NCBI RefSeq assembly: GCF_017357525.1 | Contig: NZ_CP036172.1 | Location: 1,896,561 to 1,960,560, forward strand | Source of the DNA: Methanofollis aquaemaris | GTDB lineage: Archaea > Halobacteriota > Methanomicrobia > Methanomicrobiales > Methanofollaceae | Reading direction: 5' to 3' | Length of the DNA stretch: 64,000 nucleotides | Shown: one piece after another, positions 43,115-60,867 of the stretch | Layout: each line of letters begins with the position of its first letter | Position numbering within the stretch: the stretch's first letter is position 1 | The notes under the pieces: generated by a model | The model's input: only the letters and a program-made list of their open reading frames with translations | Databases searched by the model: none | Told to the model about the DNA's origin: nothing | Translations under genes and position numbers: made by a program

Positions 43115-43214
43115 GTCAAACAAATCACATATCTCTCCGTCTCTATATTACAGTTCGGTTCCCGGACCCGGACAGGGGGAACGGTTATATCGTGACAGAT
43201 ATACCCTGAATAGT

Positions 43215-44281: not shown

Positions 44282-44385
44282 TTAGTTCCTCCCTTCTTCG
44301 TAGTCTGCTGTGTGTTCTCATCCACACATCTGAGAATAAAACCTTTGTATGTCAGTGGGGGCGGTTACGGGTTTCACGAATCATG

Positions 44386-44421
44386 GGGTAAGAGATATAA
44401 TCGAGTATGGATATTATACCC
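44386..44421. promoter_or_regulatory. Promoter with imperfect inverted repeat before tupA
   Basis: GGGTA at 44386 and TACCC at 44417 bracket GAGATATAATCG, a TATA-like element. The ATG is at 44427, so the transcript is nearly leaderless and the arms flank the promoter. Confidence 0.35.
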
Positions 44422-44426
44422 TTGCC

Positions 44427-45389
44427 ATGAAAAAGATCACCTTTATTATGCTTGTCGTGATCATGGTGGCTGCTGCCGTCATCTGCGGCTGTACAACGCC
44501 GGGAGGTGGGGAGGCGACACCGACCCCGACACCGACGGAGACGACCGCAGCACCGGGAGGGACTCAGACCCTGCTGATCGCGACGACAACCAGTCTCCAG
44601 GACACCGGCCTTCTGGATAATCTCAGACCGATCTTCGAGGAGCAGTACAACGCTGATGTGAAGATCACCGCAAAGGGGACCGGCCAGTCTCTCGAACTCG
44701 GGAGAGCGGGCGACGTGGATGTGATGATGGTCCATGACCGGGTCCGTGAGGATGAATTCGTAGACGAGGGCTATGGAGCCAACCGGCGGGTCTTTGCCTA
44801 CAACTACTTCACGATCGTCGGCCCTGAGTCAGATCCGGCCGGGATCGCAAACATGACCCCTGAAGAAGCATTCACCACGTTCCGGGAGAAGGGCCTTGCC
44901 GAACCGGGAAGCATCGTCTTCGTCTCGCGGGGCGACGACTCAGGGACACACGGGAAAGAGAAGGCCATCTGGGAGGCTGCGGGCTTCAATTACACCACCG
45001 ACATCCAGGGCTCGGGCGAGTGGTATGTGGAGGCAGGGACCGGGATGGGCTCCACCCTGGTGATGACCGGTGAGAAGCAGGCCTACACCCTCAGCGATAT
45101 CGGAACCTATCTGGCCTACAAGACCGAGACCGGCCTGGTCCCGCTGGTCGATCAGGGAGATATTCTCCTGAACATCTACAGCGTGATGGAGATCAGTCCC
45201 GAAAAGTATCCTGACGTCAATAGCACCCTTGCGAAAGAGTGGATCAACTTCCTCATCTCGCCTGAGATCCAGGAGGAGATCGGGAACTTCGGTGTCGAGG
45301 AGTATGGTCAGCCACTCTTCAACCCGTCGCAGGGTGCCTGGGAGGTACTCGGGGTGGAGCGTGCGGAGACCGAAGAGCCGGTCACCTGA
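44427..45389 (+). CDS. tupA: Tungstate ABC transporter substrate-binding lipoprotein
   Basis: A 320-residue extracytoplasmic binding protein. The signal with lipobox cysteine (AAAVICGC) is followed by a Thr/Pro linker. The mature domain starts LLIATTTSLQDTGLLDNLRP, the TupA signature loop that contacts the oxyanion, and continues FVSRGDDSGTHGKEKAIWE. TupA proteins bind tungstate very tightly. tupB and tupC follow on the same strand. Confidence 0.92.
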   Translation: MKKITFIMLVVIMVAAAVICGCTTPGGGEATPTPTPTETTAAPGGTQTLLIATTTSLQDTGLLDNLRPIFEEQYNADVKITAKGTGQSLELGRAGDVDVMMVHDRVREDEFVDEGYGANRRVFAYNYFTIVGPESDPAGIANMTPEEAFTTFREKGLAEPGSIVFVSRGDDSGTHGKEKAIWEAAGFNYTTDIQGSGEWYVEAGTGMGSTLVMTGEKQAYTLSDIGTYLAYKTETGLVPLVDQGDILLNIYSVMEISPEKYPDVNSTLAKEWINFLISPEIQEEIGNFGVEEYGQPLFNPSQGAWEVLGVERAETEEPVT

Positions 45390-45502
45390 GGTGGCGAGTT
45401 CAGGGTTGTGCGGCTGTTTCAGCCTCTCATCCCCATTTATTTCTTCCCCGCGGCCGGTCCGTCCCGGTCGTGACCTCTTTCAAAAGACCGCGAGCGTGCG
45501 AT

Positions 45503-46225
45503 ATGACAGGGCTTTTTGAGGGACTCGATCCGATCGGGCAGGGACTCTTCCAGGCGATCGAGTTGATCCTCACTCTCGACCCGGCGGTGATGGAGATCAC
45601 CGCCCGCAGCCTGATCATCACCTTCTCGGCCGTCCTTATCGGTTCGCTCATCTCGCTCCCCATAGGCGCTGCCATCGCTTTCAAGGAGTTCCCCGGAAGA
45701 AAGTCGGCGATCAACCTGATCCAGACGATGTATGCGGTTCCGACCGTCGTCGTCGGGCTGGTGGTCTTTCTCTTCATCCGCAGGACCGGGCCTTTCGGGT
45801 CTCTCGGCCTCCTCTTCACCCCGGGCGGGATGATCATCGGGCAGACGATCCTGGTCCTTCCCATCATCGTCGGCCTCACGATCTCGGCGCTGATCGCGGT
45901 GGACACCACCATCAGGGACACCATCATCTCCCTCGGGGCGACGAAGGTCCAGTTCTTCTTCTCGGTGCTCAAAGAAGCGAGGTTTGCGATCGTCGCCGCC
46001 GTGGCCATGGCCTTCGGGCGGGCGATCTCCGAGGTCGGGGCGGCGATCATCATCGGCGGGAACATCCAGGCCAGTTCGTTCTGGAGTTCGACCAGGATCC
46101 TGACGACCGCCATAACCCTCGAGACCGGGCGGGGGGACATCGCCCTCTCCATCGCGCTGGGGATCATCCTCCTCTCCATCGCGCTGGTCGTGAACATCCT
46201 GATGAACTTCGTACAGCAACGGTGA
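45503..46225 (+). CDS. tupB: Tungstate ABC transporter permease
   Basis: A 240-residue membrane permease with six predicted helices. The ABC contact loop is visible as ISLGATKVQFFFSVLKEARF (EAA-like region). ATG 45503 is chosen; GTG 45470 would add 11 residues with no ribosome binding site. Its stop overlaps the ATPase start as GTGA. There is a 113-base gap to tupA. Confidence 0.92.
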   Translation: MTGLFEGLDPIGQGLFQAIELILTLDPAVMEITARSLIITFSAVLIGSLISLPIGAAIAFKEFPGRKSAINLIQTMYAVPTVVVGLVVFLFIRRTGPFGSLGLLFTPGGMIIGQTILVLPIIVGLTISALIAVDTTIRDTIISLGATKVQFFFSVLKEARFAIVAAVAMAFGRAISEVGAAIIIGGNIQASSFWSSTRILTTAITLETGRGDIALSIALGIILLSIALVVNILMNFVQQR

Positions 46226-47313
46226 ACCCCATGATCGAGCTCCGGCATATTGCAAAATCGTTCGACGGCACCACCGTCCTGCGCGACGTGAATGCCGTCA
46301 TCCGGGACGGGGAGATCTTTGCGGTGATCGGACCCTCCGGCTCAGGCAAGTCCACCCTCCTGCGGATGATCAACCTCCTCGACAGCCCCACGAACGGCCG
46401 GATCCTCCTTGACGGCACCGACATCCATGGCGAACATTCGCAGCCCCTGGAAGTCAGGAGGAGAATGGCGATGGTCTTTCAGCGGCCGGCGGTTTTCAAT
46501 ATGAGTGTCTATGAGAACATCGCTTATGGTCTCAGGCTCAGGCATCTCCCTGAGGAGGAGATCAGGGAGAAGGTGGGGTGGGCGCTGGAGGTGATCGGGC
46601 TCTCCGGGTACGGGACGCGGCAGGCCCGCACTCTCTCGGGCGGCGAGATGCAGCGGGTCGCCCTGGCCCGCGCGCTGGTCACCGCCCCGGCGGTTCTATT
46701 GATGGACGAACCGACCGCGAACCTCGATCCGGTCTCGACGGCGGTGATCGAGGAACTGGTGGTAAGGATCAATCGCGAGCAGGGCCAGACGGTGGTCATC
46801 TCAACGCACGACATGCACCAGGGCCAGCGGCTTGCCCACCGGATCGGGGTCTTGATGGACGGGGTCTTCTCCCAGGTGGGGACACCGCGGGAGGTCTTTG
46901 CGACGCCGAAGAACAAGCATGTCGCCAGGTTTGTCGGGATCGAGAATGTCCTCTCAGGCGAGATCATCGCCACCTCCGAAGGGGTGGTCACCATCGATAC
47001 GGGCGGGGGGGTGCGGGTCCAGGCCGTCGCCCCGCTCCAGGTGGGTGCCCGCGTCTGCGCCTGCATCAAACCCGAAGACATCACGCTGTACCTCGTGGAC
47101 GGCAGTCAGGTCAGCGCCCGCAATGTCCTGAACGGCATGGTCATGGAGATGAAGGCCTATGGGCCGCTCAACCATCTCACCATCGACTGCGGGATCCCCC
47201 TCACCGCTCTGATCACCTGGAAGTCGGCGGAAGACCTGAACATCAGGGTCGGTACGAAGGTGCGTCTCTCGTTCAAGGCGAGTGCGGTTCATGTTGTTGA
47301 GGATTCAGGATGA
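46222..47313 (+). CDS. tupC: Tungstate ABC transporter ATP-binding protein with TOBE domain
   Basis: A 363-residue ATPase. Walker [15 protein letters not shown], signature LSGGEMQRVALARAL, Walker B VLLMDEPTANLD and the His switch STHDMHQGQRL are in place. A C-terminal TOBE-like oxyanion-binding domain (about residues 240-360, NVLSGEII and GIPLTALITWKSAEDL) may sense the intracellular anion and inhibit transport. Start GTG 46222 overlaps the permease stop; ATG 46231 is an alternative. Confidence 0.92.
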   Translation: MNPMIELRHIAKSFDGTTVLRDVNAVIRDGEIFAVIGPSGSGKSTLLRMINLLDSPTNGRILLDGTDIHGEHSQPLEVRRRMAMVFQRPAVFNMSVYENIAYGLRLRHLPEEEIREKVGWALEVIGLSGYGTRQARTLSGGEMQRVALARALVTAPAVLLMDEPTANLDPVSTAVIEELVVRINREQGQTVVISTHDMHQGQRLAHRIGVLMDGVFSQVGTPREVFATPKNKHVARFVGIENVLSGEIIATSEGVVTIDTGGGVRVQAVAPLQVGARVCACIKPEDITLYLVDGSQVSARNVLNGMVMEMKAYGPLNHLTIDCGIPLTALITWKSAEDLNIRVGTKVRLSFKASAVHVVEDSG

Positions 47314-47376: not shown

Positions 47377-48504
47377 TCACTCTTTCTTCTTCCATGCCCG
47401 GAGTGCATAGGCAAGGAGGAGGCCCACGACAAACCCGACGGTGATGTTCACCAGAAGAGCGAGGACGGCGATGACCCCGGTGACGAGGTACGAGTCGGTC
47501 TTGAGACTGTGTTTGCCGAGTTCGACCGCGGCGAAGATGAGCAACCCGCCGAAGACGCCGAGCGGGATGAGGGCAAGGCTCTCAGGCGAGGCGAAAAAAA
47601 GGGCGAAGCCGAGGAAGATCGCCCCTGCGATCACGTTCGCCCCGCCGGTCCTGGCCCCGAAACGGTGCTGGGCGGCAAGTCCGCCGGCACCGTGGCACAT
47701 CGGAAAACCGCCGAAGGGCACCGAGACCAGGTTCATGACCCCGATCGTGCGGGAGAGGCGGTCGGGGGGGACGTCGGTCTTGAAGAGGTCGAGGGTGAGG
47801 AGCGAGGTCGCCAGGATGGCGTTGGTGAGGGTGAGCGGGAACTGCGGCGGGACGAGGTAGAGTCCCGCGTAGACGAGGTCGGCGACGTCGGGGAGGACGA
47901 GGGTGGGCAGGGGTATCATCGAGATCTGGGGGATGCCGGCGGTGATGATCCCGGCGCCGATCCCGATGGCCAGGACGACGAGCGCCGAGACGTCGTTGAC
48001 CTTCCAGCGCAAAGCGGCGAGGAAGAAGAGCACGACTACCGCAATCGATATTCCGGCAAAGAGCGGGTCCGACTCGAGGAAACCGAGGGACGTCCTGATC
48101 AGCACGAGTGCGAGCCCGGCCTGCACCCCCCTGATGACTGAGACCGGGATCCGATCCCTGAGCCAGGTCATGCTCCCGCAGCACCCGAGGGCGAGAAAGA
48201 TGACGCCGATGATCATTCCGGCGCCAGCGATCTCCCCGGTGGTCAATCCTTCGGCGATGGCGATCGCTCCGACCGCCTTGAGGGGTTCGATCGGAATGGG
48301 GAGGCGGTAGTAGACCCCTGAAATGACATACCAGAGGGCGAAGAAGAGAAAGATCTGCGCGAGGTTCACCTCGCAGACGAGGGCGACGCCAAGGACGATC
48401 GGGAGGATGGTCCCGAAGTCGCCGACCGATCCGGCGAACTCTGCGATGGTGAATCTGAGCGGTCGAGGCCCGTTCTGTTCTTCTGCCTTCATAGGTTCTG
48501 TCAT
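47377..48504 (-). CDS. MOT1-type molybdate/sulfate permease
   Basis: A 375-residue polytopic transporter with about ten helices. The two family hallmarks are present: PIPIEPLKAVGAIAIAEGL and FPMCHGAGGLAAQHRFGART, which define the MOT1 molybdate transporter family (related to SulP but lacking STAS). It probably provides a secondary route for molybdate uptake. It is divergent from modA, in line with common control. GGAAGGA precedes the ATG. Confidence 0.88.
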   Translation of the reverse strand: MTEPMKAEEQNGPRPLRFTIAEFAGSVGDFGTILPIVLGVALVCEVNLAQIFLFFALWYVISGVYYRLPIPIEPLKAVGAIAIAEGLTTGEIAGAGMIIGVIFLALGCCGSMTWLRDRIPVSVIRGVQAGLALVLIRTSLGFLESDPLFAGISIAVVVLFFLAALRWKVNDVSALVVLAIGIGAGIITAGIPQISMIPLPTLVLPDVADLVYAGLYLVPPQFPLTLTNAILATSLLTLDLFKTDVPPDRLSRTIGVMNLVSVPFGGFPMCHGAGGLAAQHRFGARTGGANVIAGAIFLGFALFFASPESLALIPLGVFGGLLIFAAVELGKHSLKTDSYLVTGVIAVLALLVNITVGFVVGLLLAYALRAWKKKE

Positions 48505-48596
48505 CTGCGTACGTTCCTTCCGTGACGATCGTTTCCGCCCTGATGCGGGAGAAAGGTTCCGATTGCGGAGTAAAATCAGGGGTGTTTATTTACAAT

Positions 48597-48606
48597 GTTA
48601 ATTAAC
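48597..48606. promoter_or_regulatory. Palindrome GTTAATTAAC in the MOT1/modA divergent promoter
   Basis: A perfect 10-base palindrome 10 bases before modA and about 95 bases from the MOT1 start. It is a plausible operator for a molybdate-responsive regulator. A near-identical core, GTTAATTAAT, occurs at 60973 upstream of another transporter operon. Confidence 0.45.
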
Positions 48607-48615
48607 GCTCTCTAT

Positions 48616-49422
48616 ATGAAGTCATTCTCGATCATTCTTGTCTTGATGCTTGTGGTCGGCGCTGCCTGCGCCGTCTGCGGATGCACCACCGAGCAGACAA
48701 CGACAACACCGCAGGTGTCGGAAAAACCGACGCTGATGGTCTATTGCGGCGCCGGTATCAGGGAGCCGATGGAAGAGATCGCCGGAATATATGAGAACAA
48801 GACCGGCACCCTGATCAAGTTCACCTTCGGCAACTCCGCCGCTCTCCTGAGTCAGATGGAACTGGTGAAGCAGGGCGACCTCTACATGCCCGGCGCCACC
48901 GCCTATATCGAGAAAGCGGCTGAGAAGGGGTATGTGAACAGCACCGAGCAGGTCGTCTACCACATCCCGGTGATCGCCGTCGCCAGGGGCAACCCCAAGA
49001 ATGTGACCTGCATCGAGGATCTGGCGCGCGACGACCTGACCGTCGTCGTCGGCGACCCCACCGGCCCGGCGATCGGCAAGAGCACCAAGAAGATGCTGAA
49101 CAAGAGCGGTCTCTGGGATGCGGTATCTGAGAACGCCGCCGCCACGCGTGCGACCGTCAACGAACTGGTCGTCGATATCTGCATGGGCACCGCGGACGCT
49201 TCGGTCATCTGGTACGACCTCTATGTGCCCGACAAGATGGATCTCATCGAGATCCCGAAGAATCAGAACGACATCAAGGTGATCCCGATAGGGACGCTTG
49301 AATTCTCGGAGAACCCGATCGAGGCACAGAAGTTTGCCGACTTCGTCGCTTCGGACGAAGGGAAGGCGATCTTCGTGAAGCACGGCTATATCGTCTACCC
49401 TGATCCGAAGTACGAGGCCTGA
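48616..49422 (+). CDS. modA: Molybdate ABC transporter substrate-binding lipoprotein
   Basis: A 268-residue binding protein of the ModA family. A signal peptide with lipobox (GAACAVCGC) and a short Thr linker precede the mature domain. That domain opens LMVYCGAGIREPMEEIAGIY and has the oxyanion-contact segment FGNSAALLSQME and the C-lobe DPTGPAIGKSTKKML. ATG 48616 rather than 48595 gives a canonical signal peptide. It is first in modA-trmO-modB-modC. Confidence 0.9.
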   Translation: MKSFSIILVLMLVVGAACAVCGCTTEQTTTTPQVSEKPTLMVYCGAGIREPMEEIAGIYENKTGTLIKFTFGNSAALLSQMELVKQGDLYMPGATAYIEKAAEKGYVNSTEQVVYHIPVIAVARGNPKNVTCIEDLARDDLTVVVGDPTGPAIGKSTKKMLNKSGLWDAVSENAAATRATVNELVVDICMGTADASVIWYDLYVPDKMDLIEIPKNQNDIKVIPIGTLEFSENPIEAQKFADFVASDEGKAIFVKHGYIVYPDPKYEA

Positions 49423-49472
49423 TCCCTCAGGGCTCCTTCCCCTTTTCCATCATCACTGACGAGGTAATTCCC

Positions 49473-50009
49473 ATGCATTCAGAATCAATCGACCCGACAA
49501 GACAACCGGTCACCTACCGGCCCATCGGCGTCATCAGGACGCCCTTTACCGAACAGGAGAACACCCCTATCCAGGGGATATTCAACTCGGCATGCGGCAC
49601 TGTAGAGTTGTTCCCCGAGTACGAGGCCGGGCTGCTGGATATCGAAACCTTCTCGCACCTGATCCTGATTTACCACTTCCACCAGGCGAACGGTGCCATG
49701 CTCCGCCAGAAACCATTCCTCGACCTCCAGAAAGAACGCGGCATCTTTGCCATCCGCCACTTCAACCGCCCTAACCCGATCGGGATCTCGATCGTGGAGT
49801 TGAAGGGCGTGCGCGGCAACGTGCTCGACGTCTGCGGCGTGGACACCCTGGACGGCACCCCGCTCCTTGACGTCAAGCCCTATGTCCACCAGTTCGACCA
49901 CCGCGAGGAGGTCAGGAGCGGATGGGTGGACGACCAGCATGTGGACGATGTCAGGGATTGGAACAGCACCCCCGAGGCACTCAGGCATCGCGACCGGGTG
50001 AATCTGTGA
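49473..50009 (+). CDS. trmO: tRNA (adenine37-N6)-methyltransferase, TrmO/TsaA family
   Basis: A 178-residue protein of the TrmO (YaeB/UPF0066) family, which uses S-adenosylmethionine to methylate t6A37 in tRNA. Family motifs include YRPIGVIRTPF, IFNSACGTVELFPEY, SHLILIYHFH, RHFNRPNPIGISIVEL and the closing DTLDGTPLLDVKPYV. It sits between modA and modB, with a GTGA overlap with modB, so it is translated with transporter genes; a role in molybdate metabolism is not known. Confidence 0.9.
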   Translation: MHSESIDPTRQPVTYRPIGVIRTPFTEQENTPIQGIFNSACGTVELFPEYEAGLLDIETFSHLILIYHFHQANGAMLRQKPFLDLQKERGIFAIRHFNRPNPIGISIVELKGVRGNVLDVCGVDTLDGTPLLDVKPYVHQFDHREEVRSGWVDDQHVDDVRDWNSTPEALRHRDRVNL

Positions 50010-50794
50010 ATGCCCCCAATCCCCTGAAGGCGGTGACGATCGGCGTTGCCGCCCTCCTCACCACCTTCATCATCGTCCTGCTGCTCCTGGTCGTCACCCA
50101 TCCATCCCCCGCCGCACTCCTCTCCTCCATCGCCTCGCGCGAGATCCAGTTTGCCGTCTATCTATCGATCGTCACCTCGGTCGCATCGACCGCGATCTGC
50201 GTTCTGATCGCCGTGCCCTCGGCCTACGCCCTGGCGAGATATGACTTCTTCGGCAAAAATGTGGTGAATACCATCGTCGACATGCCACTCGCCCTCCCGC
50301 CGCTCGTCGCGGGTGTGGGACTTCTCCTCTTCTTCGGAACCACCCCGATCGGGAAGGCGCTCGCCGAGGCGGGACTGGTCTTCATCTTCACGCCCCTCGG
50401 GATCGTGGTGGCGCAGGTCTTCGTGAACTTCCCGTTCATGCTCAGGATCATGCGCTCGACCTTCGAGTCGATCAGTCCGCGCTACGAGTACGTGGCAAAG
50501 ACCCTCGGGTGCACCGACGTCCAGGCCCTCTGGCGGGTCACCCTGCCGATGGCGACGAGCGGTCTCATCGCCGGCGGGGTGATCACCTGGGCGAAGGGGA
50601 TCGGTGAGTTTGGGGCCGCGCTCATGCTCGCCGGTGCGACGCGGATGAAGACCGAGACGTTGCCGATATCCCTCTTCCTCAACATGTCCTGCGGCGAACT
50701 GGACCTGGCCATCTCGGCGGCGACGATCCTGATCGTCATCTCGATCGCCTCGCTCTACGTCTTTGAACGCTATGGCGGGAGCGTCAGGTTATAG
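50006..50794 (+). CDS. modB: Molybdate ABC transporter permease
   Basis: A 262-residue permease with six helices and the EAA loop AKTLGCTDVQALWRVTLPMA. It includes the conserved GIGEFGAALMLAG after it. Start GTG 50006 overlaps the trmO stop (GTGA). It belongs with modA and modC. Confidence 0.93.
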   Translation: MNAPNPLKAVTIGVAALLTTFIIVLLLLVVTHPSPAALLSSIASREIQFAVYLSIVTSVASTAICVLIAVPSAYALARYDFFGKNVVNTIVDMPLALPPLVAGVGLLLFFGTTPIGKALAEAGLVFIFTPLGIVVAQVFVNFPFMLRIMRSTFESISPRYEYVAKTLGCTDVQALWRVTLPMATSGLIAGGVITWAKGIGEFGAALMLAGATRMKTETLPISLFLNMSCGELDLAISAATILIVISIASLYVFERYGGSVRL

Positions 50795-50805
50795 GAGGCG
50801 GATGA

Positions 50806-51852
50806 ATGTTACAAATTGAACACGTATCCAAGGACATGGGGGAGTTTGTCCTCAAAGACGCCACCCTCCAGGTGAACGACGGCGAATACCTGGTGATCAT
50901 CGGGCCGACCGGTGCCGGTAAGACGATCCTCCTTGAGACGCTGGCAGGGATCTATCCCCCGGATAGCGGCAGGATGATCCTCGACGGCCGGGACATCACC
51001 GATGCGCCCCCGCGGGAGCGGCGGATCAGCATGGTCTACCAGGACTACATGCTCTTCCCCCACCTCACGGTCGCGGAGAACATCGGTTTCGGGTTGAAGA
51101 ACCAGAAGGTGGAGCGATCGGAGATCGAAGAAAAAGTGCGAGAAGCCGCTCAGTTTCTCGGCATCGATCATCTCCTCCACCGTTATCCAGAGACACTTTC
51201 CGGCGGCGAACAGCAACGGGCGGCCATCGCCCGGGCGATCGTGATGGAGCCCGCGCTCCTCCTCCTCGACGAACCGCTGAGCGCACTGGACGGGCGGACA
51301 CGGGAAAAACTCAGGAGAGAACTGCGTCACCTCCACGACCTCTACGGGATCACGGTGATCCATGTCACCCATAACTTCGAGGAGGTCTTCTCGCTCGCGG
51401 ACCGCGTGGCCGTGATCCGGGGCGGCGAGATCGTGCAGGTCGGCGAACCGCACGAGGTCTTCAGAAAACCGAACTGCGAGTTTGTGGCGAATTTTGTGGG
51501 TGTGGAGAACCTCTTCAAGGGCACCTGTGTCAGGAAGGATGGGATCTCCGAGGTCACTGTCGATGGCGTCCGGATGATCTCGACGGCCTCTGTTGACGTC
51601 GATGAGGTCTGTGTCTCGATACGGCCAGAAGAGATCCTGATCTCGCCGCGGCCGATCGATTCCAGTGCACGAAACCGGTATTCCGGGACGGTTCAAGAGA
51701 TCGCCGATAATGGGGCGACCGTCAGGATCACGGTCGACTGCGGGATCCCCCTGGCGGTGCTGATTACCCGGCAGGGATATCTTGAAATGGGTCTGGTTGA
51801 GGGAGGCACTGTTTCTGTGGCCTTTAAAGCCTCGTCTGTCCAGATCTTCTGA
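50806..51852 (+). CDS. modC: Molybdate ABC transporter ATP-binding protein
   Basis: A 348-residue ATPase. Walker A GPTGAGKTILLETL, signature LSGGEQQRAAIARAI, Walker B LLLLDEPLSALD and the His switch VTHNFEEVFSL are present. The C-terminal TOBE/Mop-like domain (residues 235-348) contains GTVQEIADNGATVRITVDCG and GIPLAVLIT, the site of trans-inhibition by molybdate or tungstate in methanogen ModC. It is convergent with the next gene. Confidence 0.94.
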   Translation: MLQIEHVSKDMGEFVLKDATLQVNDGEYLVIIGPTGAGKTILLETLAGIYPPDSGRMILDGRDITDAPPRERRISMVYQDYMLFPHLTVAENIGFGLKNQKVERSEIEEKVREAAQFLGIDHLLHRYPETLSGGEQQRAAIARAIVMEPALLLLDEPLSALDGRTREKLRRELRHLHDLYGITVIHVTHNFEEVFSLADRVAVIRGGEIVQVGEPHEVFRKPNCEFVANFVGVENLFKGTCVRKDGISEVTVDGVRMISTASVDVDEVCVSIRPEEILISPRPIDSSARNRYSGTVQEIADNGATVRITVDCGIPLAVLITRQGYLEMGLVEGGTVSVAFKASSVQIF

Positions 51853-52240: not shown

Positions 52241-52468
52241 TTATTCGTCTTTCTTATTATGATGGTGCTCGCCCTCTGGCATCGGTTCGAGCCAGACGAT
52301 CTCGGCACCGAGGTCTGCGGCGATGACCTCAACCTCGTTCTTTCTGAAGTGCTTGGACTCCAACCAGAGTCTCCTGGAGTTGTTGTCTCCGGTTACGGCG
52401 ACGATACGGAACTTCGGCTGCTTGACACCGCTGCCGACCTTCTGGCGTTCACGAACATAGATCTTCAT
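52241..52468 (-). CDS. Small conserved protein, copy 1, with His-rich tail
   Basis: A 75-residue protein: MKIYVRERQKVGSGVKQPKF leads into a compact alpha/beta core ending VIAADLGAEIVWLEPMP. The tail GEHHHNKKDE is histidine-rich and may bind metal; copy 2 lacks it. The two copies share about 60 percent of core residues. GGTGATTTCC before ATG 52468 gives the start. It is divergent from the first Mos-like gene. Function unknown; pairing with Mos-like genes in both copies suggests a linked role. Confidence 0.7.
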   Translation of the reverse strand: MKIYVRERQKVGSGVKQPKFRIVAVTGDNNSRRLWLESKHFRKNEVEVIAADLGAEIVWLEPMPEGEHHHNKKDE

Positions 52469-52484
52469 GGAAATCACCTGATAT

Positions 52485-52504
52485 CCAGTTGATATACCAA
52501 CTGG
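52485..52504. promoter_or_regulatory. Inverted repeat between small gene and first Mos-like gene
   Basis: CCAGTTG at 52485-52491 and CAACTGG at 52498-52504 form a 7-base inverted repeat. TTATATC (52516-52522) and TATAAATA (52531-52538) follow on the plus strand. Confidence 0.45.
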
Positions 52505-52558
52505 TATACGCTCTGTTATATCTCCCTACGTATAAATATTCTCTTCATAGGTGATACC

Positions 52559-53371
52559 ATCACAGCAAAACGGTTTGAATTGAATTCAGGGCTCCGCGGT
52601 GAGACGATGGTCAGAAAAGGGCTGATGCGGCAGATCGAAGAGATCCCGCAGATCCGGATCATGCCCGAACTGAATGTGATCAAGATTGGTGGTCATGGGA
52701 CCATCGATTTCGGACGCGAGGTCGTCTTCCCGATCGTGGATGAGATCGGGGCCCTCAAGGAGGCCGGGGAGAAGGTGCTCCTGGTGACCGGCGGTGGCGT
52801 CCGGGTCAGACACATCATGGACATCGGGATCAACCTGGGGATGCCGACCGGTGTGCTCGCCGAACTCGCCAGCAAGATCAGCGAGCAGAACGCCCTGATG
52901 ATGTCCCTCCTTCTCTCGCCATATGGCGGGACACAGGTGGCGTCGGGCGACCTCCTCGAACTTCCGACCCTCGCATCGCTCGGCCTTCTCCCGGTGACCC
53001 ATGGGACTCCTCCGTACGGTCTCTATGAACAACCCTCTGAGATCGGGTCCATCCCACCGAACCGGACCGATACCGGTGCGGTGCTCATCGCCGAGGTGAT
53101 GGGGGCGAAGAACTGTATCCTTGCGAAAAATGTCGACGGCCTCTTCACCGAAGATCCGCGCCTCAACCCTGAGGCCGACCTCATCTCTGAGATAACGGCG
53201 GAAGAACTTCTTGCGATGGACATGGAGGACATGGTCCTCGAGAAGAAGGCAGTCGAACTCCTCCTTCACACCAAGCATGTGAGAGAGATCAGAGTGGTCA
53301 ACGGGCATGTGCCCGGCAACATCACGAAAGCGGTAAAAGGAGAGGAGATCGGGACCCTGATCCGGGCCTGA
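52559..53371 (+). CDS. Molybdenum storage protein-like subunit (MosA/MosB family), copy 1, putative ATC start
   Basis: An amino-acid-kinase-fold protein of 270 residues if read from ATC 52559. From memory of the family, its landmarks match Azotobacter MosA/MosB rather than UMP kinase: VIKIGGHGTIDFGREVVFPI, a GVRVRHIMDIG segment, the loop IPPNRTDTG, KNVDGLFTEDP and the C-terminal VVNGHVPGNITKAVKGEEIG. MoSto packs molybdate or tungstate clusters in an ATP-dependent cage. AGGTGA sits four bases before the ATC, as it does before the ATG of copy 2, and R-(F/Y)-E-L-x-S-G-L before the next possible starts (TTG 52580, ATG 52607) is conserved. A general UMP-kinase label is possible in automatic annotation. 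Confidence 0.78.
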   Translation: MTAKRFELNSGLRGETMVRKGLMRQIEEIPQIRIMPELNVIKIGGHGTIDFGREVVFPIVDEIGALKEAGEKVLLVTGGGVRVRHIMDIGINLGMPTGVLAELASKISEQNALMMSLLLSPYGGTQVASGDLLELPTLASLGLLPVTHGTPPYGLYEQPSEIGSIPPNRTDTGAVLIAEVMGAKNCILAKNVDGLFTEDPRLNPEADLISEITAEELLAMDMEDMVLEKKAVELLLHTKHVREIRVVNGHVPGNITKAVKGEEIGTLIRA

Positions 53372-53389
53372 CCTCCTTATCTCATTCTT

Positions 53390-53626
53390 TTATCTGGCGG
53401 CGGTTTTCATCTCGCCGCGTTTTTCCTCGGGCATCGCTTCGAGCCAGATGATCTCGGCCCCCACATCCGCGGCGATCTGCTCGATCTCGGTCTTCCTGAA
53501 ATGGGTCGCCTCGACCTTGAGGTGTCCGGCATCACCCTTCCCCCCGGTAACGGCAACGACGCGGTACTTCGGTTGCTTGACGCCGCTGCCGACCTTCTGC
53601 CTCTCTCTCGCATAAACCTTCAACAT
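53390..53626 (-). CDS. Small conserved protein, copy 2
   Basis: A 78-residue paralogue of the 52241-52468 product: MLKVYARERQKVGSGVKQPK then QIAADVGAEIIWLEAMPEE. The tail is EEKRGEMKTAAR and has no histidine cluster. GAGGGGAAGAGAAG precedes ATG 53626. It is divergent from the second Mos-like gene and convergent with the first, reproducing the order of the first pair. Confidence 0.7.
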   Translation of the reverse strand: MLKVYARERQKVGSGVKQPKYRVVAVTGGKGDAGHLKVEATHFRKTEIEQIAADVGAEIIWLEAMPEEKRGEMKTAAR

Positions 53627-53668
53627 CTTCTCTTCCCCTCTGGCCACTCGGGGCCATGGTGGCGCCAC

Positions 53669-53703
53669 TATAAATCTCATGATATATAGTATTCGTCAGG
53701 TGA
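53669..53703 (+). promoter_or_regulatory. Promoter and ribosome binding site of the second Mos-like gene
   Basis: CTATAAATC at 53668-53676 is a TATA candidate about 26 bases before AGGTGA (53698-53703). The ATG at 53708 is four bases after that. The spacing serves as the reference for the ATC of copy 1. Confidence 0.5.
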
Positions 53704-53707
53704 CGGT

Positions 53708-54520
53708 ATGAAATCTGGTCGATATGAACTGGAGTCCGGGTTGCAGGGCGAGACGCTGGTACGGAAAGGACTAATGCGGCGGACCGGGGATATCCCGCAG
53801 ATCAGGATCATGCCCGACCTGAACGTGATCAAGTTCGGCGGGCACGGGACGATCGATTATGGCAGGGAAGTGGTCTTCCCGATCGTGGATGAGATCGGGG
53901 CCCTCAAAGAGGCCGGGGAGAAGGTGCTCGTGGTGACTGGCGGCGGCGGACGGGTGCGGCATATCATGGACATCGGCATCGACCTCGGGATGCCGACCGG
54001 CGTGCTTGCCGAACTCGCTGGCAAGATCAGCGAGCAGAACGCGATCATGATGACTGTTCTTCTTTCTTCATATGGGGGGGTGCGGGTCCACACCGCCGAT
54101 CTCCTCGAACTCCCGACGATCATCGCCCTCGGCCTTCTCCCGGTGACCCACGGCACCCCACCGTACGGGCTGTACGAGCAACCCCCCTCGGTGGGATCGA
54201 TCCCGCCGAACCGGACTGACACCGGTGCGGTGCTCATCGCCGAGGTGATGGGGGCGAAGAACTGTATCCTTGCGAAGAATGTTGACGGGCAGTTCACCGA
54301 GGATCCGAGGGTCAACCCCGGCGCCGAATTGATCGCCGAGATCTCGGCAGAGGATCTTCTTGCCATGGACCTGGAAGACCTGGTGCTGGAGCGCCGGGCG
54401 GTTGAACTCCTTCTCAATACCAAACATGTGAAAGAGATCAAGGTGGTCAACGGGCATGTGCCCGGCAATATCACGAAGGCGGTGAAGGGGGAGCGGATCG
54501 GGACGGTGATCAGGGGATGA
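53708..54520 (+). CDS. Molybdenum storage protein-like subunit (MosA/MosB family), copy 2
   Basis: A 270-residue paralogue of copy 1, sharing most residues: VIKFGGHGTIDYGREVVFPI, GRVRHIMDIGIDLGMPTGVL, IPPNRTDTGAVLIAEVMG, KNVDGQFTEDPR and VVNGHVPGNITKAVKGERIG. Two subunits would allow a hetero-oligomer like alpha/beta MoSto. The usual ATG at 53708 has AGGTGA four bases upstream. Its 3' end overlaps the convergent ABC ATPase gene by 11 bases. Confidence 0.8.
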   Translation: MKSGRYELESGLQGETLVRKGLMRRTGDIPQIRIMPDLNVIKFGGHGTIDYGREVVFPIVDEIGALKEAGEKVLVVTGGGGRVRHIMDIGIDLGMPTGVLAELAGKISEQNAIMMTVLLSSYGGVRVHTADLLELPTIIALGLLPVTHGTPPYGLYEQPPSVGSIPPNRTDTGAVLIAEVMGAKNCILAKNVDGQFTEDPRVNPGAELIAEISAEDLLAMDLEDLVLERRAVELLLNTKHVKEIKVVNGHVPGNITKAVKGERIGTVIRG

Positions 54521-55316
54521 ACCCTGGCCCCTTCTCTTTAAGAATGATCTTCGGAACACATGCCTGCCGCCCCGCCTCGGTCACATAGGGAACGGCGACA
54601 TCGATCCCATAGGCCTCTCCGAGATTTTGTGGGGTGAGCACCTCTTCCGGCGGTCCGACCGCGATAAAGTTCCCGCCTTTCATGATCGCGACGGTCTGTC
54701 GGACCACAAAACTGTGGTCAGGGAAGTGAGAGGTCATGATCACTCCTATCCCATTCCTCGCGAGGCGATCGATAAGTTGCAAGACCCTGATCTGGTTGCC
54801 GAAGTCGAGGTGGGAGGTTGGCTCGTCGAGGATCAGGATCTCAGGTTGCTGGGCGACGGCCCGGGCGATGAGGGCAAGTTGGAGTTCGCCACCGCTGATA
54901 TCAGAGACCGGCCGTTCGGCGAGGTGTGCGATCCCGACGGTCTCCAGCGCGGCCTGAACAGTCGTGCTGTCACTCTTCCCCGGTCCTGCAAAAGCCGGGA
55001 GATGAGGAGTTCTGCCCATGAGTACCAGTTCGCCCACCGTGAAAGGGAAAACGATCTGGTGGCTCTGTGGGACATAAGCAATTTTTTTGGCGATCTCAGT
55101 TCTGGAAAGGTCAGCGATCTCCTCTCCTGCGAGTTGGATGCATCCCTGTCCGAGAGGAAGGAGGTTAAGGAGACACTTGATCAGCGTCGATTTGCCGGTG
55201 CCGTTCGGACCGAGGATACAGAGACACTCGCCTGTGTCCAGGGAGAAGGAGATGCCTTCAAAGATCGATCTTCTCCCGTCATAGGAGAACCCCGCATCGC
55301 TGACCTGGAGGATCAT
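54510..55316 (-). CDS. ABC transporter ATPase, FepC/BtuD type
   Basis: A 268-residue ATPase for a metal-chelate or cobalamin-type importer. Walker A LGPNGTGKSTLIKCL, the Q-loop YVPQSHQIVF, signature ISGGELQLALIARAV (Leu variants), Walker B ILILDEPTSHLDFG and the switch TSHFPDHS are in order. Start ATG 55316 overlaps the permease stop (ATGA). Last gene of the five-gene operon; the substrate is not known. Confidence 0.9.
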   Translation of the reverse strand: MILQVSDAGFSYDGRRSIFEGISFSLDTGECLCILGPNGTGKSTLIKCLLNLLPLGQGCIQLAGEEIADLSRTEIAKKIAYVPQSHQIVFPFTVGELVLMGRTPHLPAFAGPGKSDSTTVQAALETVGIAHLAERPVSDISGGELQLALIARAVAQQPEILILDEPTSHLDFGNQIRVLQLIDRLARNGIGVIMTSHFPDHSFVVRQTVAIMKGGNFIAVGPPEEVLTPQNLGEAYGIDVAVPYVTEAGRQACVPKIILKEKGPGFIP

Positions 55317-56377
55317 GACCACCCCACCTTCTTGGTCTTGAGGAGCCAGGCGAAGACCGGCGCCCCGATAATCGCAGTGAGTATGCCGAGCGGGATCTCG
55401 GCCGCGGTCAGAGTTCTGGCGAGGTCGTCGATGATGAGAAGGTACGATGCGCCTATCGCAGCTGAAAGGGGCAGTAATTTCCGATAATCCGGGCCGACGA
55501 TCATCCTGGCGATATGGGGGACGACCAACCCAACCCATCCGATGACCCCTGAAAAACAGACCGCAGTCGCTGTGATAAGGGTGGCACAGAGGATGATCGC
55601 CCGGGCCATTCTGGCCGTGTCCACACCGAGGGTGCGCGCCTCGTCCTCGCCCATGGCAAGGACATTGATCCGCCATCGAATGAGCAGGAGAACCGTGGTG
55701 CCGAGAACGATCGGGACGAGGAGAAACATGAGGTCGCCGGCTTTCACACTGGAAAGACTGCCCATCAGCCAGAAGACAATTGCCGGGAGTTTCTCATAAG
55801 GGTCGGCCATATACTTCAGGAGCGAAATGAGGGCCGAGAAGAAGGAACCGACAACGATCCCGGCGAGGACCAGAACCAGCGTAGGGGTGGTCTTGTAGAT
55901 CTTGGCAAGGGTATATGTTAGTCCGACGGCCAGGACACCAAAAGAAAAGGCGAAAGTCTGAATGACCCAGGTCTCGCCTGAGAGAATGATCCCGAGGGCG
56001 GCACCGAACCCGGCTCCAGATGCGACACCAAGTATATGGGGGGAAACGAGTGGGTTCCTGAAGAGCCCCTGAAATGAGGCGCCGGAGACCGCAAGTCCGG
56101 TCCCGATAAGCAGGGCGGCGATGACCCTGGGGAACCGTACTTTGAGGATGACGGTATCCACGACGTCCGGCCAGGTGTGGGGGATCGAGAGAGGGAAATT
56201 GGGGATGCTCTCAAGGGCCGCTGCAGCGAGAACCTGCGGGACCGTGAGGGGATCGACGCTGAACCTCCCGAGGAAGAGAGAGACGAAGAAAAGAATGATA
56301 GGAAGGCCGCAGAGTGTTCCTGCGACGATGGAGTCTCTACTCTTCACGCTCGGTGCCGTTCTATTCACCTTGTTCAT
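55313..56377 (-). CDS. FecCD-type ABC transporter permease
   Basis: A 354-residue permease of the FecCD/BtuC family with about ten helices. The regions VRFPRVIAALLIGTGLAVSG, GASFQGLFRNPLVSPHILGV and GVIGWVGLVVPHIARMIVG are highly typical. ATG 56377 overlaps the upstream gene by 17 bases, with a purine-rich AGAGGGG immediately before it. It exchanges with the double substrate-binding protein upstream. Confidence 0.93.
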   Translation of the reverse strand: MNKVNRTAPSVKSRDSIVAGTLCGLPIILFFVSLFLGRFSVDPLTVPQVLAAAALESIPNFPLSIPHTWPDVVDTVILKVRFPRVIAALLIGTGLAVSGASFQGLFRNPLVSPHILGVASGAGFGAALGIILSGETWVIQTFAFSFGVLAVGLTYTLAKIYKTTPTLVLVLAGIVVGSFFSALISLLKYMADPYEKLPAIVFWLMGSLSSVKAGDLMFLLVPIVLGTTVLLLIRWRINVLAMGEDEARTLGVDTARMARAIILCATLITATAVCFSGVIGWVGLVVPHIARMIVGPDYRKLLPLSAAIGASYLLIIDDLARTLTAAEIPLGILTAIIGAPVFAWLLKTKKVGWS

Positions 56378-57527
56378 CCCCTCTCTTTTTCTGTTCCCTG
56401 ACGACGGCAAGGGTACCGAAATTGTACAGGTTGCGAGCATAACACTCCAGAGCGATATCGGCGCCGGTGGTCAGATGGGTGAGGGTACTCCTGCTCCCGA
56501 CTGCCACGCTCTTCCCCGACCAGTCGCCCCCGAGAGTCCTCTCAGGGAGTGCGGTGAAGTAACCTGAAAAGGGATAGGGCTTATTCTCGTCATCTTCCCG
56601 GAAGTGGAAGTATGCAGGAGGATGGGGCTGACGATTGAGGTGTTCGCCGGTCATGGCCGCGAGGTACTGCTCGCCCCCCTGGGGATAGATGAATTCCCCG
56701 AAGGTGTTGTCGCACCGCGTCCACGGGAGGAGAAAATTGTCGGTCCCTACTCCTTCGATGATAATGAAGGCGACTTTGTCCCCTTCTTCAAGTCTCCTGA
56801 GGACAGTCGGTTTGATCTCTGGGAGTGTTCGGATCGTGCCGGCGTCACTGTGGATCGGGATCTCTCGGTCCAGCCCGGGAATTGCATGGACCGGTCTGGT
56901 GACACTCCCGAAACCGCGGAAGATCCATCCTTGCTCTGCAGCGAGGAGGAGGTCGGGGAGACGGTGTGCCTGCTCTTTGCAGGGACGGAATTGCCTGACG
57001 ACTTCGTCCTTCGTCATGGCCCACCTGATGCCGTCCATCTCTTCGATCTCCTTGAGATCCCGGGTGGAAGGGCGATCAACGGCTGCGTAGGTGGGGACAG
57101 GGCCGGTCACATTCTCGATCCCGTCGATCGTCGAGAGGTCGACCCGTCCCATCACCGGCGTCAGCGATCCGGTCCCGAGGACGACCGGGCAGAAGCCGCT
57201 CTCCTCAATGAAACGTCCGGCCTCAACGAAGGCGGTGGCGACGGCTCCGAGCCATGCCTCCCGACTGAGACCCGAGAAGGTGCGCAGGAAGAAGGGGTTT
57301 GCATAGTTCAGGAGAACTAGTTCGGGGCTATATCGCCGGGTGAGGCCCAGGGCGGTATCGGTAACCCAGGCCATCGCCCCCGCTTCCTGATCTCCGGGGT
57401 AAGGATGGTCCTGCTGGATCTTTCTGGCAATGCTGCAGAGTGGCCCATCGGCTTCTCTCTCCTGCCCACTCTCAAGGTCGAAGACGGTCTGCCAGCCGAC
57501 GGCATCAAGGATCCCGAGGGCGGTCAT
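56361..57527 (-). CDS. Unknown protein in the transporter/radical SAM operon
   Basis: A 388-residue soluble protein I do not recognise. It begins MTALGILDAVGWQTVFDLES. It has the segments ELVLLNYANPFFLRTFSG, CPVVLGTGSLTPVMGRVDL and GDKVAFIIIEGVGTDNFLL, and ends near VAVGSRSTLTHLTTGADIAL. These alternating hydrophobic strands and loops with Asp, His and Asn look enzymatic, possibly alkaline-phosphatase-superfamily, but no metal set can be fixed. ATG 57527 overlaps the radical SAM stop (ATGA), so the two proteins are made together. Confidence 0.65.
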   Translation of the reverse strand: MTALGILDAVGWQTVFDLESGQEREADGPLCSIARKIQQDHPYPGDQEAGAMAWVTDTALGLTRRYSPELVLLNYANPFFLRTFSGLSREAWLGAVATAFVEAGRFIEESGFCPVVLGTGSLTPVMGRVDLSTIDGIENVTGPVPTYAAVDRPSTRDLKEIEEMDGIRWAMTKDEVVRQFRPCKEQAHRLPDLLLAAEQGWIFRGFGSVTRPVHAIPGLDREIPIHSDAGTIRTLPEIKPTVLRRLEEGDKVAFIIIEGVGTDNFLLPWTRCDNTFGEFIYPQGGEQYLAAMTGEHLNRQPHPPAYFHFREDDENKPYPFSGYFTALPERTLGGDWSGKSVAVGSRSTLTHLTTGADIALECYARNLYNFGTLAVVREQKKRGDEQGE

Positions 57528-58531
57528 GCCGTGCCCTCCTGATCCCAGGGACGATGCCCGCCGAGGACTGGAATCTTCGTCCCACAGGTGGGACACCGGT
57601 CGCCGTCGAGATGGTAACCGGTCAACTTCGCTCCGCACCCTCCCGGACTGATCCTGGTGATCACCGCCCTGCCGCAGGAAGGACAGCGGGTATCAGTCCA
57701 CTGCGACCCTGCGAAGTTGGAGAAGTAGATATAGGGCAGGTGTTTGCAGGCCCCGGTGAGGAGGGAGGTGATCTCTTCAATGTCGGGGTAGCGTTCGTCT
57801 TTCATCTCATACTCCGGAAGAAGCCTGAAAACGTGCCAGGGGATATTCGAGTCTATCGAACGGATGAAGGCGGCGATCTCCGGGATCTCGATGTCGTTGA
57901 CACTCTGGATGATCGGGGTCGTCACCTCCACATGACAGCCGGCGGCAAGAGTCTTCAGGTTCCGGAGGACGGTCTTTGCGGCATCGATCCCGATGTAATC
58001 CCGATAAAACTCTTCTGAGAGCGACTTGACACTGAGGTTCACAAAATCGCAGACCTGCGCCATCTCTTCAGCGACCGTCCCGGTCATGCAGCCGTTGGTG
58101 AGGCAGCCTGCCTGGAGGCCGGCGGCATGCGCGGCGAGAGCGAGATCTCTGAAAGAAGGAAAAGAGACGGTCGGTTCATTGATCCCGAATATGATCGAGT
58201 GACAACTCGCAAGTCGGGCCTTTCGTACCAGTGCCTCGGGTTCCATCTGGAAGTATCTGAAGGTGGCCGGGTCGGTCCTGGCCACATATGCATTGGAACA
58301 GTATCGGCAGGAGGCGTTGCACCCTGCCGTGCCCACCAGCAGAGCGCGGGATCCCGGATACGCATGAAAGAACGGGAGGGACTCGATGTGGCTGGCAAAA
58401 TAGGACGACCAGCGGTACGGGAAGCGTTCCAGAACGCGTCCCTCAGAAAGGTGATACGTCCCGCAGATCCCGGTTTTTCCTTCGTCAAGGTTACAACCTT
58501 GATCACAATAGTGGCATCTCATGGTGTGCAT
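57524..58531 (-). CDS. Radical SAM enzyme, PflA/AmmeMemoRadiSam-like, with zinc-ribbon tail
   Basis: A 335-residue radical SAM protein. The N-terminus MRCHYCDQGCNLDEGKTGIC is the family's cysteine-rich cap. The cluster motif is CNASCRYC at about residue 74. The C-terminal 70 residues hold further Cys pairs (CPSCGRAVITR and CPTCGTKIP) likely binding zinc. It lies in an ABC importer operon, coupled to an unknown gene. The start could be ATG 58531 or 58522. The chemistry is unknown. Confidence 0.85.
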   Translation of the reverse strand: MHTMRCHYCDQGCNLDEGKTGICGTYHLSEGRVLERFPYRWSSYFASHIESLPFFHAYPGSRALLVGTAGCNASCRYCSNAYVARTDPATFRYFQMEPEALVRKARLASCHSIIFGINEPTVSFPSFRDLALAAHAAGLQAGCLTNGCMTGTVAEEMAQVCDFVNLSVKSLSEEFYRDYIGIDAAKTVLRNLKTLAAGCHVEVTTPIIQSVNDIEIPEIAAFIRSIDSNIPWHVFRLLPEYEMKDERYPDIEEITSLLTGACKHLPYIYFSNFAGSQWTDTRCPSCGRAVITRISPGGCGAKLTGYHLDGDRCPTCGTKIPVLGGHRPWDQEGTA

Positions 58532-58572
58532 CTCATAAAGAGGAGGGCGCCGGGGGCGCCCCTGGATCTGGC

Positions 58573-60867
58573 TCAGGCCTCTGCACCTGTTTCAGTCGAA
58601 ACTGTGGTGGGGACAGGAGTCGTGGTCTTCAGGCCCGGGAAGGTGGTGCCGGGGACGGTCCCACCAAGTTCAGTGAAGGACGTCCCATAGAACTGCTCAT
58701 AGAAGGAGTCTGCATCCGCAGTCACGTCGGTGTCTTTGAAGAGGTCGGGGTGAAGGGTCTTTGCGGTCCACTCCAGACCGAGGGCGGTCTGCGGCGAGGG
58801 CGAGTCCCACTCGCAGATGTTGGAGGGGAACCAGTAGACCTGGCCGTTCTTGACGGCGGTGATGCTATGGAGGTCAGGGTCGCTCATCACGCTCTCGGGT
58901 GTGGAGACGCTCTGATACTGAACGAGGAAGATGATGTCAGGGTCCCATGCGAGGAGTTGCTCGGTATTGACATCAGCCCAACGGGTTCCTGCGAGTTCCG
59001 ACGCGACATTTTCGCCGCCTGCGGCCTCGATGAGGCTGCTCTGGAACATCTCGCCGCCGGCGGAGGAGGAGATCCCGTTCCACCCGCCGAGATAGACCTT
59101 CGGCCGCTGCTCCTCAGGGAGGTCTCCGGTCTGCGACGTCACGGCGTCAAGGGTGTTCTGATAAATCTCGGTGAAATCAGTGGCGGCGTCATCAGACCCG
59201 AGAGCTTTTCCAAGCTGGCTCATGGTGCTCTTCATCTGGTCATGGTTCTCAGCGACGACACCAAAGACGGTCAGGCCCTTGTCTTCGAGATCTTCAAGGG
59301 ATTCCTTGTTCCATCCTGCGACCAGCACGAGGTCGGGCTGCAGTTCGAGGACAGTCTCGACGTTAAGATCTCTCGGGTTGCCGACACAGGTAAGGTCGGC
59401 GATCCCTGGGTTGAGGAGACAGACGAACTGGTCGGTCTGCGACTGAGTGATGGAGTCGACGCCCACGAACCGGTCCGCAGCTCCGAGCGTGGTCACCATC
59501 CGGACAGCCGGGGGATAGTTGGTCACGATCCGTTCCACCGGGAGACGGATCTCGACGTCTCTCCCTGCACCATCGGTGACGGTGACGGTCCTGACGTGGG
59601 GAGCAGGTATCGGACCCATGATCTCGCGGGCCTCCTCTTCAGAGAGATCGTAGTCGTAGAAGAGGCTGTAGAAGTCCTGGGCCTCGGCGACCATATCGAG
59701 GTCGACGGTCTCGGGGTAGGTGCCGTTTGCAAGCCATTCCATACCGAGGACCGCCTCGGGAACCGGGCTGCCCCAGTCGCCGACAAAGCGCGGGATGCGG
59801 TAGACCTTGCCGTGCTTTACGGCCTTGATCTCCTGCCAGGCAGGGTCGGTGAGGAGGGCCTGCGGGTCACCATTGTTGCTGAGGATGATCACGTCGGGGC
59901 TCCAGGTGGCGACCTGCTCGAAGTTCACTTCCTGGCGGTGGCCGACGAGTTCTTCGGAGGCGAAGCGGCATCCCGCGTCATGTGCCCACTGGGAGTGGAA
60001 CTCGCCGCCGGCGAAGGTGTGGAGCGGCGACCTCCAGGTGATGTAGGCGTTGTCCTGGTCGGCCTCCGGGATCTCGCCGGTCATCTCGACAAGGGCCGAG
60101 CGTCTGTCACCGAGGTATGAGACAAGGTCTTCGGCGCGTTCTTTCTTGTTCAGGACATCCCCGATGACGGTGAGGGCACCGGTGACATCGTCGAAACCGT
60201 TCGTGTTGAGGTAGACGACCGGTACACCGACCTCATCGAGTCCTCCCTTCGACCAGGAACCGGCGATGATCACGTCGGGGTGGACAGCGAGGATCGCTTC
60301 CTTGTTCACCTCGATGCCGGTCCCGCTGACGACCGGGATATCCGAGATGGATGGGTCGATGGTCTGAAAGCCTTCGTCGATGGAGGCAAAGCGATCGATG
60401 CCCGCCAGGCGTTTTGCATCCCCGTCGATCGCCATGACCATAGCGGCCGCAGGGGTGTAGAGGGTCACGACATGGTGGGTGGTGTACGGTATCCTGACGG
60501 TGTCGCCGTTCATATCGGTGACTGTCCTGTATGATGGCGTCGAACTGTCGCTCCCGGAATCCTCCCAGTCTGATGACGATGCAGGGGTGGTTTCGGTGAC
60601 ATTGGCCGTCACTTCAGGTGCGGTGGTATTTTCCGGCGTTGGGGTCGGGACCGGCGTCTCGTTTGTCGGAGAGATGGTGGGTACGATGGTGAGGGTGGGG
60701 TGCGACTCCGGGGCGGCCGTAATGCCCTGATGGGGGTTTGTACTCTCCGGAGTCGGCGTCTGCGGTTGATCCGGTTGCTGCCCGGCAGGTGCAAAGATGG
60801 CCGCACCTGCAACTACAGCGGCAACGATGGTTGCTACCAGTAAAATGGCGGTTAGCGTTCTATCCAT
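58573..60867 (-). CDS. Tandem double substrate-binding protein (FepB/BtuF type), membrane-anchored
   Basis: A 764-residue extracytoplasmic protein. An N-terminal hydrophobic segment (AILLVATIVAAVVAGAAIFA) anchors it, and a Pro/Thr-rich linker follows. Two periplasmic-binding-protein-like domains then stand in tandem: domain 1, about residues 115-415 (VRIPYTTHHVVTLYTPAAAM), and domain 2, about 425-730 (VEIRLPVERIVTNYPPAVRM). Each keeps LxxxPDVII/LVAGW and ends in an SPxPxxxLGxEW motif. Fused pairs could bind two ligand molecules or raise capture. It is the first gene of the operon with GGAG near the ATG. Confidence 0.88.
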   Translation of the reverse strand: MDRTLTAILLVATIVAAVVAGAAIFAPAGQQPDQPQTPTPESTNPHQGITAAPESHPTLTIVPTISPTNETPVPTPTPENTTAPEVTANVTETTPASSSDWEDSGSDSSTPSYRTVTDMNGDTVRIPYTTHHVVTLYTPAAAMVMAIDGDAKRLAGIDRFASIDEGFQTIDPSISDIPVVSGTGIEVNKEAILAVHPDVIIAGSWSKGGLDEVGVPVVYLNTNGFDDVTGALTVIGDVLNKKERAEDLVSYLGDRRSALVEMTGEIPEADQDNAYITWRSPLHTFAGGEFHSQWAHDAGCRFASEELVGHRQEVNFEQVATWSPDVIILSNNGDPQALLTDPAWQEIKAVKHGKVYRIPRFVGDWGSPVPEAVLGMEWLANGTYPETVDLDMVAEAQDFYSLFYDYDLSEEEAREIMGPIPAPHVRTVTVTDGAGRDVEIRLPVERIVTNYPPAVRMVTTLGAADRFVGVDSITQSQTDQFVCLLNPGIADLTCVGNPRDLNVETVLELQPDLVLVAGWNKESLEDLEDKGLTVFGVVAENHDQMKSTMSQLGKALGSDDAATDFTEIYQNTLDAVTSQTGDLPEEQRPKVYLGGWNGISSSAGGEMFQSSLIEAAGGENVASELAGTRWADVNTEQLLAWDPDIIFLVQYQSVSTPESVMSDPDLHSITAVKNGQVYWFPSNICEWDSPSPQTALGLEWTAKTLHPDLFKDTDVTADADSFYEQFYGTSFTELGGTVPGTTFPGLKTTTPVPTTVSTETGAEA

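Follow-up and report, generated by a model that had tools for sequence, protein, structure and literature searches.

MoSto is the known example of a protein in which polyoxometalate clusters are assembled and kept in store. In Azotobacter vinelandii, it comprises two anciently diverged subunits, MosA and MosB, in an (alpha-beta)3 hexamer, and cluster ligands of MoSto are of the histidine and glutamate kind (PMC6294228). According to a 2019 paper, protein databases contain no known homologues of MoSto (PMC6448029). A conserved-domain entry does cover MosA/MosB-like kinases, and the homology itself may therefore already be visible in databases. The role that we propose below, in which molybdate or tungstate is stored for use by Mo/W enzymes, is also that of the TOBE-domain storage proteins Mop and Tub, of which Tub of Eubacterium limosum is an example (PMC11980592), although these are unrelated in fold, each being a TOBE domain of about 70 aa that forms a hexamer with 8 oxyanions. 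The archaeal UMP kinase PyrH (TIGR02076) resembles the proteins studied here in its amino-acid-kinase fold and glycine motifs. Methanogens need Mo or W for their formylmethanofuran and formate dehydrogenases. Neither an archaeal MoSto nor Mo storage in connection with methanogens was found in the literature searched, which left out most subscription papers, and the module, partner, operator and duplication reported here appear to be undescribed in that literature.

Two archaeal proteins of the MoSto family

We analyzed a window of 64,000 nucleotides (the whole stretch of DNA, from Methanofollis aquaemaris) in which, as in A. vinelandii, two homologous genes lie side by side: mos1 (52559..53371, plus strand) and mos2 (53708..54520, plus strand; 270 aa, ATG start). 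The original prediction, made from the letters and a list of open reading frames, had described both as 270-residue proteins of the amino-acid-kinase fold carrying IPPNRTDTG, KNVDGxFTEDP and VVNGHVPGN, related to MosA/MosB rather than to UMP kinase, paired with small genes and adjacent to modABC, a MOT1 permease and tupABC. All three motifs were present, and the length of 270 residues held for mos2, and for mos1 only if translation starts at an ATC codon. The pairing also held, with one small divergent ORF upstream of each mos gene (starts corrected to 52468, MKIYVRER, and 53626, MLKVYARER), as did the neighbours, in the form of '-like' assignments. A winged-helix (wHTH) gene, a palindrome and a TrmO gene within the mod cluster had not been mentioned.

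The assignment to MosA/MosB was likewise confirmed. In phmmer searches of PDB sequences, both proteins matched MosB most strongly (E = 4e-60 for mos1 and 4e-59 for mos2, with about 44% identity), followed by MosA (about 1e-43), while the best UMP kinase reached only about 1e-13. The AF2 model of mos2 (pLDDT 89) was superposed with a TM score of 0.92 on MosB (6rj4_B) and 0.80-0.86 on MosA, compared with at most about 0.71 on UMP kinases. In a tree of 88 sequences with PyrH as the outgroup, the archaeal Mos proteins grouped together with MosA and MosB, and a starred branch separated them from PyrH; MosA and MosB each formed one starred clade, and the archaeal rows lay on one side of a branch with weak support (64). 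An alignment of 105 archaeal, 78 MosA and 79 MosB sequences contained 38 columns conserved at more than 95%, many of which were not found in PyrH. Lys42 (MosA K45/MosB K42) was conserved at more than 95% in all three groups; a role of this lysine in MoSto is known, and the PDB entry 6ris, a Kb42S variant of MoSto, provides a hint of it. The archaeal proteins thus resemble A. vinelandii MoSto in sequence clade, fold, Lys42/45, the 38 shared columns and the proline-rich loop IPPxR(T/A)D(T/A)G. These results show that both proteins of the window belong to the MoSto family, fold included. The locus is not a product of chance, given an E value of about 4e-60 to MosB and the recurrence of the same arrangement in dozens of genomes.

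An alternative is that a UMP kinase, or another small-molecule kinase of the amino-acid-kinase superfamily, has been misread as MoSto. In its favour, the fold family is common to both, and the best curated NCBIfam match of both Mos proteins is archaeal PyrH (TIGR02076). However, these matches score 67.5 and 59.8 bits, far below the cut-off of 158, while the true PyrH encoded elsewhere in the same genome scores 258 bits; PyrH lacks the MoSto-specific columns, the starred branch lies between the MoSto clade and PyrH, and the genes occur in a Mo/W transport neighbourhood. The identity as UMP kinase was accordingly rejected on scores, tree placement and the separate true PyrH, and the wider alternative is very unlikely.

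Separate duplication, mos1 start codon and cage residues

The two copies are not orthologues of MosA and MosB, a correspondence that the tree rejects. All ten copies from the genus of the window formed one starred group, and therefore the pair arose by a recent duplication within the genus, separate from the MosA/MosB split. Most archaeal relatives, unlike A. vinelandii MoSto, have a single mos gene, and the criterion of two anciently diverged subunits in an (alpha-beta)3 hexamer is not met by the archaeal genes. Since most relatives have one mos gene, a single-gene Mos is likely to form a homo-oligomeric cage, although both the oligomer and the cavity are inferred.

For mos1, the first standard start codon is TTG at 52580 (263 aa), whereas ATC at 52559 gives 270 aa and aligns exactly with the ATG of mos2 (AGGTGATACC-ATC versus AGGTGACGGT-ATG). 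At this conserved position, ATC, ATT or ATA was observed in 9/9 genomes of the genus that were seen, in each case behind GGTGAT. From the alignment with mos2 and these nine genomes, we infer that mos1 probably starts at the non-AUG codon ATC at 52559. In one genome (G092), an ATG directly follows the non-ATG codon at the start position.

Glu129, His140 and His156 of MosA bind clusters. In our alignment, these residues were not conserved in the 105 archaeal sequences, which in this respect differ from A. vinelandii MosA, nor were they conserved in MosB. The absence of cage-contact residues had been named in advance as an observation that would refute a MoSto-like assignment; this is partly the case, in that the MosA ligands are not conserved, although they are missing from MosB as well. 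In the alignment column that holds MosA Glu129, the archaeal sequences had His in 72/105, Lys in 11 and Ser in 12, and many also had histidines at further positions near this column. Within the window, mos2 has a histidine there (H128), which is kept in most species of the genus, while mos1 has none, the mos1 group of the genus having A, S or K. It is possible that the histidines at and near this column serve as metal ligands, an inference from sequence alone without binding data.

Small partner gene, putative winged-helix regulator and palindrome

Unlike A. vinelandii MoSto, the archaeal locus comes with a dedicated small partner gene, a wHTH gene and a putative operator. The partner genes of the window are small1 (52241..52468, minus strand; 75 aa, MKIYVRERQK...) for copy 1 and small2 (53390..53626, minus strand; 78 aa, MLKVYARERQK...) for copy 2, which share 65% identity and belong to the same conserved family. 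We searched an even sample of 394 genomes from the phylum and detected mos in 67/394 and the small gene in 70/394, with the small gene present in 67/67 mos genomes; these genomes are related, and the counts are not independent events. The small gene also lay beside mos or at most 15 kb away in 54/54 mos loci of at least 10 kb, usually divergent at a distance of 90-150 bp, and in some genera separated from it by 1 to 15 kb but in most cases still accompanied by the wHTH gene. These results show that the pairing of the small gene with mos is constant. A search of 26 bacterial mosAB genomes, run without a positive control alongside, did not find the small gene, nor did it turn up in 80 bacterial mos loci with DNA of up to 8 kb on each side.

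Three genomes had the small gene without a detected mos. In two of these (G259 and G250; family f7, L278/L280 entries), the small gene is broken by a frameshift (G259), or it is intact and the wHTH gene is frameshifted (G250), which may reflect decay after mos loss. In the third (G273), the contig ends near the small gene.

The small protein is basic, with conserved residues Arg7, Arg9, Lys11, His42, Arg44 and Lys45 in the alignment, and it matched no known family in Pfam, NCBIfam, PADLOC or PDB sequences. Its AF2 model was of middling confidence (pLDDT 76) and had no significant fold match, the best hits being NDUFS4-type subunits of complex I and ribosomal protein S16 (E = 0.4). A local similarity to AMP phosphorylase was observed (E = 4e-4 within its own genome; E = 0.6 in PDB). 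We infer, in the absence of binding data, that Mos is bound by the small protein, which would act as an accessory subunit in loading, release or capping. Its partner is more likely to be Mos than the regulator, because genomes without the wHTH gene still carry the small gene together with mos.

The wHTH gene, HTH51874 (51874..52224, minus strand; 116 aa), encodes a protein with weak wHTH/GntR/MarR similarity (PDB 2x4h, SSO2273, E = 0.002), which we propose as the regulator of the module. Homologues were found in 44/54 mos loci of at least 10 kb, and in 42/48 mos-positive compared with 1/21 mos-negative genomes tested. Between the small gene and mos, we detected a palindrome, TATACCAnnTGGTATA, with at most 3/14 mismatches in 76/90 intergenic regions, compared with 0.7% of shuffles. 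The consensus was drawn from the same 90 regions and the comparison is biased in its favour, but the gap is still large. In the window, the palindrome takes the form TATACCAACTGGTATA at 52493..52508 (no strand assigned), between small1 and mos1, and this putative operator is the one perfect match in the 2.75 Mb genome. In many loci, inspection by eye places the palindrome immediately upstream of a TATA-like sequence of mos.

The presence of this site followed that of the regulator. No site was found near mos or the small gene in five genomes in which mos is present and the wHTH gene was not found anywhere (G001, G011, G099, G248 and G257), and the palindrome was kept in two genomes in which the wHTH gene is unlinked (G133 and G158); as exceptions, three loci with the wHTH gene (L181, L224 and L225) have only weaker sites. 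Co-occurrence of regulator and operator is thus shown, while binding of the wHTH protein to the TATACCAnnTGGTATA palindrome, and its control of mos and the small-wHTH genes by repression or activation, remain inferences without binding data. In three loci (L203:10301, L204:10625 and L215:10126), the palindrome was observed a second time just past the end of the wHTH gene, where it may lie upstream of the following gene.

The small protein and the wHTH protein might instead form a sensor-regulator pair with only an indirect link to mos, a possibility that bears on the partner alone and does not conflict with storage by Mos. In most loci, including ones where mos lies elsewhere, both genes follow the operator on a shared strand, which suggests such a pair. 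However, six genomes have mos and the small gene without the wHTH gene (G001, G011, G099, G248, G257 and G266), one has the wHTH gene without mos or the small gene (G192), and the small gene is broken in G259, where no mos was detected. We therefore regard such a pair as unlikely and prefer the small protein as a partner of Mos. The wHTH gene of G192 lies beside tup and MOT1 genes.

Molybdenum and tungsten neighbourhood and proposed function

A tupABC-like tungstate/molybdate ABC importer (44349..47313, plus strand) shows TupA and TupB similarity under the NCBIfam cut-offs and has an ATPase nearest to WtpC; it is followed by a permease with weak SulP similarity in NCBIfam (47377..48504, minus strand), which we take to be a MOT1-like molybdate permease, and by a modA-trmO-modB-modC (wtpC-like) cluster (48595..51852, plus strand) with matches above the NCBIfam cut-offs (ModA, TIGR01256; ModB, TIGR01581; the ATPase WtpC, NF040840; TrmO, TIGR00104). 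At least one of the TupA, ModA and MOT1 genes occurred in 48/54 mos loci of at least 10 kb, with TupA near mos in 35/54 and MOT1 in 36/54, and the predicted tie between mos and Mo/W uptake genes therefore held beyond the window. The predicted methanogen host was also confirmed by two mcrA genes in the genome; mcrA was not seen in two mos-bearing genomes outside the order (G245 and G270).

Across the order, mos was detected in 152/232 genomes, usually once, and twice in the genus of the window. The remaining 80/232 genomes had no mos match, and many of these are methanogens; mos is therefore not essential to methanogenesis. The archaeal spread rests on these genome searches.

A partnership with nitrogenase was considered and rejected. 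Above the cut-off, nifD was found in 6/48 mos-positive and 7/21 mos-negative genomes (Fisher's exact test, P = 0.05, in the sense opposite to a link), and it is absent from this genome, in which the mos genes, unlike those of A. vinelandii, lie beside Mo/W importers. A NifB gene (TIGR01290, above the cut-off) is nevertheless present at 42194-43123, about 1.2 kb from tupA.

We consider it likely (probability of about 0.74) that the locus encodes an archaeal, ATP-using cage of the MoSto family that stores molybdate and/or tungstate for Mo/W enzymes. In this view, the Tup, Mod and MOT1 transporters would import molybdate and/or tungstate, the Mos cage would use ATP to condense the imported oxyanion inside and hold it as oxo-clusters, and the store would buffer the supply for Mo/W enzymes. 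Storage, which the original prediction had related to the demand of methanogens for these metals, remains the best reading, although it is inferred from homology and neighbourhood and not shown by the sequence; the specificity for Mo or W cannot be told from the transporter genes.

A rival reading retains the MoSto fold without storage, with Mos as an ATP-dependent handler of Mo/W oxyanions (as sensor, chaperone or donor in cofactor synthesis) and the small protein as its effector. It is supported by the lack of conservation of the MosA cage ligands, by the constant small basic partner, which would suit signalling or transfer, and by the link to transport genes, which fits sensing as well as storage. 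However, resemblance to MosB across the whole protein is strong (about 44% identity, TM 0.92), MosB too lacks the MosA ligands, and histidines occupy the Glu129 column in 72/105 archaeal sequences and nearby positions in many. We therefore judge this reading unlikely and retain storage.

In this genus, the cassette has duplicated. Copy 1 retained the operator and has an unusual start codon. Copy 2 retained the ATG start and, for most species of the genus, a histidine aligned with MosA Glu129; its intergenic region has no operator within 3 mismatches, here or in the related genomes examined. Since the copies diverged in operator, start and this histidine, they may by now be subunits of unequal kind, a development parallel to that of MosA/MosB. 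A bolder form of the storage reading would combine a one-gene homo-oligomeric cage with a small subunit that is obligate and has no counterpart found in the bacterial system, and with its own wHTH regulator and operator, the duplicated cassette of the genus re-evolving two unequal subunits, one from a non-AUG start. This version as a whole is possible, but less likely than not.

MoSto relatives are thus present in many genera of archaea; nifD is mostly lacking there, and mos is usually a single gene that the small partner constantly accompanies. The single-gene form offers a simpler, possibly ancestral cage for structural work, the small protein is a candidate for a missing component of the cage system, and the module offers an answer to how methanogens could buffer Mo or W. 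The regulator, operator and partner lead to clear, testable predictions.

Two further features of the neighbourhood were observed. Next to mos2, a stretch at 54510-60867 holds genes for a FecE/FecCD/BtuF-type importer, a radical SAM gene and one gene without an NCBIfam match (56361-57521), and is rarely near mos elsewhere. The TrmO (tRNA methyltransferase, TsaA) gene within the mod cluster, at 49473-50009, is near mos in 16/54 loci.
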